From the IMG/VR virus record IMGVR_UViG_3300029267_000502, positions 1 through 21,928 of that record: a DNA stretch of 21,928 nucleotides; one strand, written 5' to 3'. The stretch is from a virus. Below the pieces are notes generated by a model. It saw only the letters and a program-made list of their open reading frames with translations. It searched no databases and was not told the origin of the DNA. A program made the position numbers and the translations under genes. This document shows positions 1,911 through 21,928 of the stretch, piece after piece (position 1 is the stretch's first letter; each line of letters opens with the position of its first letter).

Positions 1911-3470
1911 ATGAATAAGACCTCTAAGACATCGGCTACAACTGAGATTAGAGAAGCAGCAGAAGCTGATCTTGAGGTATTCATCAGACTAGTAGCCCCC
2001 CATGAAATGATTGGTAGCTGTCACAGGGACGTAATTAGGTGGTGGACACGAGAACAAGCCAAGACTCATCAACTCCTTCTATTCCCTAGAGATCATGGTA
2101 AGAGTAGACACATTGCTTATAGGGTGGCTTGGGAGATTACTAAAGACCCAACCCTTCGTGTGCTATACATTTCAGCCACCTCTAACCTAGCAGAGAAGCA
2201 ACTTACTTTCATTAAAGGTATTCTCACTAGCGACATCTATAGGCACTACTGGCCCGGCCATGTTAATAAGGAAGAGGGTAAGAGAGAGAAGTGGACTTCC
2301 ACTGAGATTTCCCTAGACCACCCCGCAAGAAAAGAACATAACATTAGGGAACCCACTGTATTCACTGCTGGCCTTACTACTGGCATCACTGGTCTACACT
2401 GTGACATTGCAGTGCTGGATGATGTGGTTGTTCAGGAGAATGCTTACAACGAAGAAGGACGTAACAAGGTTAGAAGTCAATACTCTCTTTTGTCTTCCAT
2501 CGAAACCTCAGATGCTAAAGAGTGGGTGGTTGGTACTAGATACCACCCCAAAGATCTGTACTCAGATATGCTTAGTATGAAAGAGGACATATACGATGAA
2601 GATGGCGAGAAGATAGATGAAGTACCAATCTATGAAATCTATGAGCGCCCGGTAGAAGATAGAGGAGATGGCACAGGACAGTTCCTATGGCCACGACTGA
2701 AGCGTAAAGATGGTAAATGGTTTGGGTTTAATATCCAAGTGCTGGCAAAGAAGCGTGGTCAATATCTTGACAGGATGCAGTTTAGGGCACAGTATTACAA
2801 CGATCCCTCTGACCCTGACTCCAGACCAGTTGACTACCACCAGTTCCAATATTTCGAGAGTAAGTTCTTGACACAAGATAAGGGCAACTGGTTTTATAAA
2901 GACAAGAGACTAAACCTTATAGCCTCTATTGACTTTGCCTACTCGATCAGGAAGACTGCTGACTACACTGCAATTGTTGTGATTGGTGCTGACGAAGATA
3001 ATAATATCTATGTTTTGGATATTGACAGGTTTCGTACGGAGAATATCAGCGACTACTTCAAAGCCATTCTTGGCCTGTCTAACAGATGGGGCTTTAGGAA
3101 ACTCAGGGCTGAAGTTACAGCAGCTCAGGCAGCTATTGTAAAAAGTCTTAAGCAAGACTTCTTCGCTCCGCATGGTCTAACTATTCGTGTAGAAGAGGTT
3201 AGACCAACTAGACATCAAGGTAGCAAAGAGGAAAGGCTTGAAGCTGTACTACTTCCTCGTTATGAGAATGGCCAGATCTTCCACTATAGGGGAGGCAACA
3301 TTCAATACTTAGAGGAAGAAATGGTAAGTAGAAACCCACCGCACGATGACGTTAAGGATGCTCTAGCTACCGCCATTGAAGGCGCAGTTAGGCCAGCTAA
3401 GCAGATGAGGCAGAGAAGTATGGGGTCAAATATTATTAGTCACCCAAGGTTCGGAGGTATTAGCAGATGA
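1911..3470 (+). CDS. terL: Terminase large subunit (packaging ATPase and nuclease)
   Basis: At 519 residues this is the usual size for a podovirus large terminase, which pumps DNA into the prohead and cuts concatemers. The ATPase half shows a variant Walker A, FPRDHGKS (Lys64, Ser65), and a Walker B, IAVLDDV (Asp170, Asp171). The RNase H-like nuclease half shows SIDFAYS with Asp341, then a late acidic cluster, HDDVKDA (Asp479, Asp480, Asp483). A GAAGGAGA ribosome-binding site lies before the ATG, which starts three bases after the endolysin stop. Its TGA overlaps the portal ATG (ATGA). No small terminase subunit is encoded upstream in this window, so it must lie elsewhere or be unrecognised. 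Confidence 0.93.
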   Translation: MNKTSKTSATTEIREAAEADLEVFIRLVAPHEMIGSCHRDVIRWWTREQAKTHQLLLFPRDHGKSRHIAYRVAWEITKDPTLRVLYISATSNLAEKQLTFIKGILTSDIYRHYWPGHVNKEEGKREKWTSTEISLDHPARKEHNIREPTVFTAGLTTGITGLHCDIAVLDDVVVQENAYNEEGRNKVRSQYSLLSSIETSDAKEWVVGTRYHPKDLYSDMLSMKEDIYDEDGEKIDEVPIYEIYERPVEDRGDGTGQFLWPRLKRKDGKWFGFNIQVLAKKRGQYLDRMQFRAQYYNDPSDPDSRPVDYHQFQYFESKFLTQDKGNWFYKDKRLNLIASIDFAYSIRKTADYTAIVVIGADEDNNIYVLDIDRFRTENISDYFKAILGLSNRWGFRKLRAEVTAAQAAIVKSLKQDFFAPHGLTIRVEEVRPTRHQGSKEERLEAVLLPRYENGQIFHYRGGNIQYLEEEMVSRNPPHDDVKDALATAIEGAVRPAKQMRQRSMGSNIISHPRFGGISR

Positions 3471-20173: not shown

Positions 20174-20340
20174 TAGTTTACTGGCTTAAGGTGGTTAATC
20201 TCAGCCGACTCTTTCTGTTTGAACTCTACGTCTTCGGTAACCCACTCATACAGATTTTTGAGGGTTACTTCAAACTCCTCCCCATTCGTAATGGGGGGCA
20301 TCATACCAAGGATAGTAAGTTTAAGTTCTAGGGTATTCAT
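20173..20340 (-). CDS. Small 55-residue protein directly downstream of nrdJ
   Basis: A short frame on the - strand: ATG at 20340-20338 overlaps the nrdJ TGA (ATGA), and its TAA at 20175-20173 overlaps the next ATG (TAATG). Such double coupling is good evidence for a translated gene. The product begins MNTLELKLTILGMMPPITN and continues with a charged helix (EEFEVTLKNLYEWVTEDVEF), with no membrane segment. I do not recognise it. It is too short for many gene callers and could easily be missed. Confidence 0.65.
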   Translation of the reverse strand: MNTLELKLTILGMMPPITNGEEFEVTLKNLYEWVTEDVEFKQKESAEINHLKPVN

Positions 20341-21319
20341 TCACAGCTCCTTAAGCCAGAAGTTGGGTCGTAGTAGCAAGCTCCCCCCTCATCAATGAAG
20401 AAGTCTGTTGCCTCGTCTTGTACGTCTTTAGGTTCAGCTACCTCCTCGTCTTTCGATGCCTTGAGAATGCCGTAGCGTTTACCTGCTGCACGGAAAGTTG
20501 TAATTCCACTCGCTCCTCCATCATATGCTGCCATATAGACATCTTTGAATTGGTCCCAAGACACCTCTTCTCCAACATTACATGTCTTAGAGCAAGCACT
20601 GTCAACATAATGAGAAGCTGTAGTGAGAACGTTAACATGATCCATAACACTAAGCTCATCAGCAGTCTTCCCTTTTACACCAAACACTCTATACCCGTAG
20701 TCTTTCACCCTTTCTACAGTTGGTCCCTCAAATGTTTGGATTGTTCTGTCGTACTCATGCGAGAATACAGGTTCGATGCCGGAAGAAACATTGTCAGCAG
20801 AAAGGCTGATAGTACCGGTAGGAGCAATACTGAGAAGATGGCTATTCCTAACGCCATAAGACTTGATGTCATTTTGAATATCCAACGGGAGAGATTCAAA
20901 GAAGGTGCCTCCATACTCTTCTCTGTTAAACAGGGGGAAAGCCCCCTTCTCTACAGCCAGAGCAATAGAGGAACGATAGGCAGTGTCTCTAAGGGTGCTC
21001 AAGATAGTAGACATCCACTCAATGAATTGCTCGCTGCCATACTCAAACCCCAGAGCCTCCCCTGCATTAGCTAGACCAGTAACTCCGAGACCCATCCGCC
21101 TCTTATTCTTAGCCTCTCCTTCTTGCTGAGGAAGTGGATAGGTTGCCCTATCAATTACATTGTCCATAGCCCTAACAACATGGGGGATGTCATGCTTAAA
21201 TTTCTCGTAATCGAAAAAGAACTCTCTCCCGCCTTGGTCATTATCTTCAACTATATACGTAACTAGGTTAAACGACCCTAGGAGACAGGCTCCATAAGGA
21301 GGCAAGGGCTGCTCGCCAC
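20337..21319 (-). CDS. nrdJ: Ribonucleotide reductase, class II (B12-dependent), 3' exon
   Basis: The C-terminal ~326 residues of adenosylcobalamin-dependent ribonucleotide reductase, which makes deoxynucleotides for phage DNA. The coding sequence is clear from GEQPLPPYGACLLGSFNL onward. The Cys in YGAC matches the redox-active cysteine of the family. RMGLGVTGLANAGEALG, the phosphate-binding IAPTGTISLSADNVSSGIEP, the CSKTCNV segment, GITTFRAAGKRYGIL and a C-terminal Cys pair (GACYYDP...RSCE) follow. The true exon begins at 21319, in the middle of a codon. The TTG at 21305 is not a start. The upstream half, including Asn-Pro-Cys of the active site, is outside the window, separated by an intron. 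The stop overlaps the next gene. Confidence 0.88.
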
Positions 21320-21344
21320 CGTCACACTGACCCTTGTGTTGCAG

Positions 21345-21773
21345 TTAGGTCTGTGCGCTGGACTGTCGCATGTGTATATCAGTGTGCTTGTTTTTCCAAT
21401 GCCCCTCTTCGTAAGTACGAAGAGCATGGCAATTTTTACAAGTCACTACGCATTTAGCTAGCTCTTGTTCTATACGAGACCAAGACCACCCGGCATCATA
21501 AGATTTATGAGAACCTCGGTAAGTTTTTGTTTTTGGGTCTGTATGATCCAAGTCAAGTTGGCAGGAATGCTCGGCTTGAAAACCACAAACCTCGCAACCT
21601 TTAGACAACTTGTAGGCAGAAACACGATTTCTTTGTTCCTGCCTGTAATTTCTAGCTCTTGCCCTAGAACACTCTTTACAATCTGCTTGAAGACCTTTTC
21701 TACTACCACCACGATAGAAGAACCCTTCTTCATTTTTGTGTCCTAAACAAGTTCTACACTGTCTTTTATTCAT
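21345..21773 (-). CDS. HNH homing endonuclease inside the nrdJ intron
   Basis: The product has 142 residues. The N-terminus has a zinc-ribbon-like CxxC pair set (CRTC, about 5-8; CKEC near 35). The nuclease core is CEVCG, LDLDHTDP (the first His of HNH), WSRIEQELAKCVVTCKNCHALRT (Asn and His of the motif, with the second Cys pair). Enzymes like this nick or cut intronless alleles so that the intron is copied in. The start is the ATG at 21773, with AGGAG seven bases upstream. A GTG at 21797 would overlap that site. The stop (TAA, 21347-21345) lies beyond the P7 3' strand, so the last residues are encoded by the intron core. Confidence 0.87.
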   Translation of the reverse strand: MNKRQCRTCLGHKNEEGFFYRGGSRKGLQADCKECSRARARNYRQEQRNRVSAYKLSKGCEVCGFQAEHSCQLDLDHTDPKTKTYRGSHKSYDAGWSWSRIEQELAKCVVTCKNCHALRTYEEGHWKNKHTDIHMRQSSAQT

Positions 21774-21801
21774 ATGGTTGCTCCTGTATATAGTCACAAC
21801 A

Positions 21802-21829
21802 CATATAGTAATTAATTTATATTTGTCAA
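21802..21829 (-). promoter_or_regulatory. Candidate sigma-70-type promoter for the HNH gene
   Basis: On the - strand TTGACA (21829-21824) is followed after 16 bases by TATATG (21807-21802), in a very A+T-rich stretch about 30 bases upstream of the HNH ATG. The -35 box is a perfect consensus. The -10 box is a weak match and the spacing one base short of ideal. It would let the endonuclease be made independently of nrdJ transcription. Confidence 0.45.
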
Positions 21830-21928
21830 GAGGTGTAGGAAAATTTATTTATACACCCCCCTCGCTCAGTCTCTCACGCTGCACAGGCGGTTAACCTTGC
21901 TTGCGCCCTGTCGCCTCCGCAAAGGCTT

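Follow-up and report, generated by a model that had tools for sequence, protein, structure and literature searches.

A mobile group I intron very probably splits the radical-cysteine codon of a phage class II ribonucleotide reductase

What interrupts a phage ribonucleotide reductase (RNR) gene at the codon of its catalytic cysteine, and how could that codon be rebuilt? The window, meaning the whole stretch of DNA analysed here, is a complete IMG/VR virus record of 21,928 b, and the record ends where its minus strand begins. On that strand, the last ~1.6 kb hold the C-terminal exon of NrdJ, a short spacer, an HNH ORF and ~155 non-coding bases that reach the contig end. A first-pass annotation, made from the letters alone, had read the nrdJ frame as broken upstream of a Gly codon. 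We find the same break: the ORF that occupies this place, closed by a TAA at 21347-21345, encodes an HNH protein and contains no NrdJ N-terminal sequence. We consider it very probable that, in the gene for a phage class II RNR, a mobile group I intron lies between bases 1 and 2 of the radical-cysteine codon, which belongs to the N-P-C-G-E motif. For this explanation, sequence comparison establishes the intron anatomy, the exact site in homologues, the covariation and the patchy presence among close nrdJ relatives.

The NrdJ 3' exon (20337..21319, minus strand) comes from a class II (adenosylcobalamin) RNR. It reads GT-GGC-GAG-CAG-CCC from 21319, opening with the GT of the split Cys codon (U|GU), and has its stop at 20337; after removal of an intron ending at G21320, it supplies the restored Cys-Gly-Glu-Gln of NrdJ. 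The exon matches Ribonuc_red_lgC (PF02867) at 4.5e-51 and NrdJ_Z (TIGR02504) at 5.8e-74, the latter under the model's full-length cut-off because exon 1 is absent from the contig. The NPCGEQPLP motif is unbroken in 14 intron-less nrdJ relatives (L001-L014), where it is written ATNPCGEQPLPP or close variants. Through the NrdJ of CRP-9, an intact relative, the Cys of NPC aligns with residue 322 of Thermotoga maritima NrdJ (1xje), a position counted from the printed alignment coordinates. Cys322 is established as the residue that carries the transient thiyl radical, and the earlier claim that the catalytic cysteine codon is the one split is borne out by this alignment. With an NrdJ barrel and an N-P-C-x-E radical cysteine, the window gene is assigned to nrdJ.

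Because the record ends at 21928, exon 1 and ~50-60 nt of intron before the 5' splice site are missing from the window; P1 and the 5' strands of P3 and P4 likewise fall past the contig end. An exact-pattern search with CGCAAGCAAGGTTAACCGC returned as its sole match an unrelated contig (L017); it recovered no contig that overlaps the window and carries its exon 1. Therefore, we searched for homologues carrying the same intron with both exons. Searching with the HNH protein gave L018 and L019, which are complete introns with both nrdJ exons. A core-derived pattern gave 16 contigs including L027, and a P1-derived pattern gave 55 contigs, in most of which the 5' exon is from an RNR and finishes with ...N-P plus U. 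A contig was counted as having both exons when its intron ends in G and its 3' exon starts with G[UC], continues with C-x-E and resembles an RNR. By this measure 38 other contigs pass (~29 without near-duplicates), and all are split AAT CCG U|G[UC], as anticipated by the first-pass annotation, which had called for a 5' exon ending in AAY-CCN-T. The junction is identical, as judged by eye, in L066 and L075. In silico splicing gives an unbroken N-P-C-x-E in 38/38 of the both-exon contigs. Their host RNRs are very diverse: some are close NrdJ relatives, and others share no more than ~25-30% identity with the CRP-118 type. Exon 1 of the window phage would presumably end in the same way.

The full-length counterpart of the window is L058, with an HNH of the same type at the corresponding position, the same core and both exons; its 3' junction is GTGTGATG followed by exon GTGGAGAACAA. 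L081 has no ORF, and its junction (GTGTGACG followed by GCGGAGAACAA, exon GCGG) shares an identical intron end with the window (GTGTGACG followed by GTGGCGAGCAG, exon GTGG). L027 is a 5' half that holds an nrdJ exon ending ...ATNP plus U, P1, P3, the core and the first part of a related HNH. In all three, exon 1 ends AAT CCG U|. The cultured Roseobacter phage CRP-118 (L041, OR420741.1) has a 172-nt ORF-less intron in the same codon (~35054-35225); its RNR is annotated as two genes, gp44 and gp45, and the intron between them is unannotated. G21320 (minus strand), the terminal (omega) G expected of a group I intron, is the predicted last intron base and 3' splice site of the window, matching the introns of L081, L058 and CRP-118 and the intron end first proposed for this locus.

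The same intron might instead follow the Gly codon, 5 nt downstream (TGT GGY|GAG), as it does at GGU|GAA in L018 (757-1425) and L019 (~2791-3445). The window HNH is 75% identical to that of L018 and 66% to that of L019, and the cores are homologous. At this site, however, the last base of the window intron would be C (..GGUGGC|GAG) and not G, whereas L018 and L019 end UCG|GAA; moreover, the window's 3' end, GTGTGACG before GTGGC, agrees with L081 and L058, whose exon 1 ends AAUCCGU. The +5 site was rejected for the window on its terminal C, and we regard it as quite improbable. Because L018 and L019, so close in their HNH, insert 5 nt further, the exact position within the cysteine codon rests on the window's own 3' junction together with L058, L081 and L027.

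Does the RNA between these exons look like a group I ribozyme? The 3' ~609 nt of the intron lie in the window (21320..21928, minus strand, as are all the elements below), where P5, P6, P7, P8 and P9 are found; P3 and P4 are complete in homologues. The P5 hairpin (GCCU/AGGC, 21913..21926) covaries in the family. It is followed by the P4 3' strand (CAGG, 21907..21910), whose partner CUUG is past the contig end, and by P6 with a variable P6a (21876..21906), in which GCGC (21906-21903) faces GCGU (21879-21876) and a C-G has become G-C on both sides in L053 and L060. The guanosine-site helix P7 is formed by GACUG (21867..21871) and by CAGUC (21361..21365), which lies within the end of the HNH ORF. 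Its end pair is always compensated in the family, being G-C in 11/24 introns (including the window) and A-U in 13/24, and is never broken. The P3 3' strand GAGGGGG (21857..21863) pairs in homologues with the 5' strand that the first-pass annotation had suggested looking for, and 5/7 pairs show compensatory change. P8 joins GUGUAUA (21850..21856), upstream of the ORF, to UAUACAC (21372..21378, pairing as 21378-21372), closes the loop containing the ORF and covaries across the family. P9 (21323..21357) is a hairpin of CGCACaGACC (21357-21348) and GGUCaGUGUG (21332-21323) with compensatory change in 7/9 pairs. Thus, the HNH ORF is looped out in P8, P7 and P8 both pair across it, and P9 stands beyond it. 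In the homologues P1 is AAUCCGU/GCGGAUU, and the U·G pair predicted at the splice site is present.

All of P1, P3, P4, P5, P6, P7, P8 and P9 are supported by an alignment of 24 introns, the window included, from which P8 loops with ORFs were removed. Paired cells make up 95.4% of this alignment, 22 pairs are changed on both sides, and 175 cells are doubly changed. None of 500 shuffles was as good in covariation. Sliding the register by 1-3 columns left 35-46% paired, a control biased in favour of the structure, since L081 served as the template for counting all 24; the compensatory changes are unaffected by this. The search with the Rfam group I model RF00028 gave no match in the window, nor in 21290-21928 alone, at E up to 10, and it misses all family members tested; it does recover the controls and L083, L070 and L090. 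A family covariance model was built from 18 relatives with the window left out; searched against the window plus eight nrdJ loci that lack the intron, it gave a single match, 21928-21829 (44 bits, E=3.4e-9). The absence of a covariance-model match, named at the outset as a refuting outcome, is formally the case with RF00028, whereas the family model finds the window. We treat a match to RF00028 as a detection tool and not as a defining feature of group I introns, and the coverage of the Rfam model is acknowledged to be incomplete (PMC11878797). With a P3/P7 pseudoknot core, P4-P6, P8 and P9, the minus strand from 21928 to 21320 is, on this comparative evidence, the 3' part of a group I intron.

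The ORF (21345..21773, minus strand, ATG at 21773) encodes 142 aa. The protein matches PHROG 2255 at 7e-28, and also PHROG 3106 and 4234; Pfam and NCBIfam gave no match. Its membership of an HNH/zinc-finger sequence family makes it a putative HNH homing endonuclease. The last codons of the ORF double as the ribozyme strands P8 3', P7 3' and P9 5' (window 21345-21378). The A-U form of P7 gives the TAG stop of the ORF in L058 (GCGATAGTC), and the G-C form is read through by the ORF in the window and in L018 (GCGACAGTC). The C/T covariation in P7 decides whether the HNH ORF stops there, as in L058, or continues, as in the window and L018.

An HNH gene next to a broken nrdJ could also be free-standing, having split nrdJ into two separately translated genes with no splicing. 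The genes-in-pieces nrdA of Aeh1 is a precedent (PMC3653736), and the CRP-118 halves are annotated as two genes. Against this, the split falls inside one codon, so that an unspliced second gene would be without the catalytic Cys, and the sequence flanking the split folds as a covarying group I core. Furthermore, ORF-less introns occupy the identical site in L041, L073 (also among the both-exon contigs) and L081. We rejected the free-standing gene on the split codon and these ORF-less introns, and rate it as very improbable. An assembly chimera or a pseudogene comes to mind since the intron lies at a contig end, and has next to no likelihood: the independent contigs L058 (record of 30.6 kb) and L018 (23.8 kb) are organised in the same way, each with its two exons and unbroken frames.

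We return to the intron in the cysteine codon and to how it would work. The folded RNA would form the P3-P9 core of a group I intron, and the loop of P8 would contain the HNH ORF. From group I chemistry, we expect guanosine to attack after the exon U held in P1; the exon 3'-OH would then attack after the terminal G, joining U|GU and rebuilding Cys in a self-splicing reaction. The HNH enzyme may nick or cut the intron-less nrdJ of co-infecting phages at the conserved sequence, and repair of the cut allele would copy the intron in. On a tree of exon-2 proteins, genes that have the intron are dispersed among genes that lack it, and the closest relatives of L081, L001 and L003, are without the intron. 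Since intron-less close relatives are intermixed in this way, the tree fits mobility.

The first-pass annotation had gone further and tied the phage's nucleotide supply to splicing, an idea that we regard as speculation. The exon U and the first intron bases AA form UAA in 25/42 distinct RNR introns; therefore, translation of an unspliced message ends just short of the catalytic residue. Such a stop may protect the ribozyme from ribosomes or serve as a fail-safe. That the intron is a fail-safe on-switch for dNTP synthesis, retained by phages rather than merely tolerated, seems to us doubtful. The proposal that it is a regulated on-switch whose splicing times phage dNTP production, a general idea discussed in PMC11878797, is unlikely. 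In its favour, the UAA stops the message exactly at the catalytic codon, and PMC3653736 cites a link between T4 intron splicing and growth state. However, close nrdJ relatives do without the intron, the same intron family occupies structural genes, and an early stop also simply keeps ribosomes off the ribozyme.

How far does this family extend? A strict core pattern that contains no target sequence placed the intron in the RNR N-P-C-x-E motif in 14/16 contigs, a count that includes the shifted sites of L018, L019 and L029. With a looser core-only pattern, at least 103 distinct introns were found, of which 16 adjoin RNR exons among the matches listed, and on this count we rejected an RNR-specific intron family. 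Most of the other upstream exons among the matches listed look like phage coat, major capsid, tape-measure, portal and terminase genes, names that come from a look at the sequences and the existing annotation of L040. The same compact core is seen in L101-L207, in structural-looking phage genes (P22-type coat, capsid-like, tape-measure-like), and RF00028 misses the members tested; L161, L200 and L039 have two or three intron copies each. Among the matches listed, P1 reaches at least 7 bp in 52% of 102 family loci from many genes, versus 15% with swapped exons; therefore, the guide follows the host gene. These introns therefore belong to a general family of phage introns, for which the RNR position is a recurrent site.

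Within the N-P-C-x-E motif the site is not always the same base. Besides the 5-nt shift of L018 and L019, the intron of L029 (minus strand, ~2030-2225) sits, by reading, 3 nt downstream, at TGC U|CG GAA. The shifted P1 helices (CGUGUGGU/GCCUCACG in L018 and CCUGUGGU/GCCUCAGG in L019), also by reading, have a guide that changed together with the exon. The RNR insertion site appears to have crept within the motif in these three contigs, with guides adapted to the new exon. As a separate observation, positions 2829-2900 of L018 (minus strand) give a weak Rfam match to the BjrC68 sRNA (E 0.002, below cut-off); this G+C-rich hairpin downstream of nrdJ is possibly a terminator.

Other introns use the site as well. 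A second type, recognised by RF00028 and carrying LAGLIDADG ORFs, is inserted at the identical RNR nucleotide in L070, L083 and L090; L086 has the LAGLIDADG type at the same site with an RF00028 match below cut-off (38.9 vs 50 bits). GIY-YIG ORFs lie in introns at this site in L030 and L050. In bacterial genomes the strict core pattern found none, and the P1 pattern found 9 contigs; RNR introns are present in three of them (L090, L091, L096), and the rest look like chance. L090 is a Bacillus sp. AFS073361 contig; L091 and L096 are Lachnospiraceae genome bins with an ORF-less family member at the RNR site. In highly divergent phage RNRs, the catalytic-cysteine codon is a convergence point: three families of endonuclease (HNH, GIY-YIG and LAGLIDADG) and two distinguishable types of group I ribozyme have reached the identical nucleotide.

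Phage RNR genes have long been known to contain group I introns, as in T4 nrdB, Staphylococcus phage Twort nrdE and SPbeta nrdE/nrdF (PMC3653736, PMC3984707). Like the window intron, these are group I introns, some with HNH, in conserved parts of RNR genes. In contrast, their hosts are class I or III genes, while the window gene is a class II nrdJ interrupted in the catalytic Cys codon itself, and the window ribozyme belongs to a lineage that RF00028 does not recognise. The DNA polymerase introns of SPO1-type phages and of cyanophage Pf-WMP3, the latter described as group IA2, also combine a small HNH with a phage group I intron, in a host gene other than nrdJ (PMC3428280). The LAGLIDADG introns of L083, L070 and L090 share the RNR insertion site and P1 sequence of the window family, but differ in their RF00028-recognised core and endonuclease family. 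Split nrdJ genes have been noted in Thermus phage phiYS40 and Synechococcus phage P60 (PMC3653736). In the open-access literature we found no paper that describes an intron splitting the catalytic cysteine codon of an RNR, a weak negative given that most subscription papers are outside this scope.

RNRs are among the metabolic genes commonly carried by viruses of the sea and other waters. When an intron of a family that RF00028 misses is placed in the one codon that an RNR cannot do without, the gene may be lost from annotation or, as happened with CRP-118, be entered as two broken genes. The cultured CRP-118, with its 172-nt intron at the site, makes splicing directly testable. The exact site, recurring across RNRs, ribozyme types and endonuclease families, offers a clean natural experiment for asking what draws mobile introns to catalytic codons.
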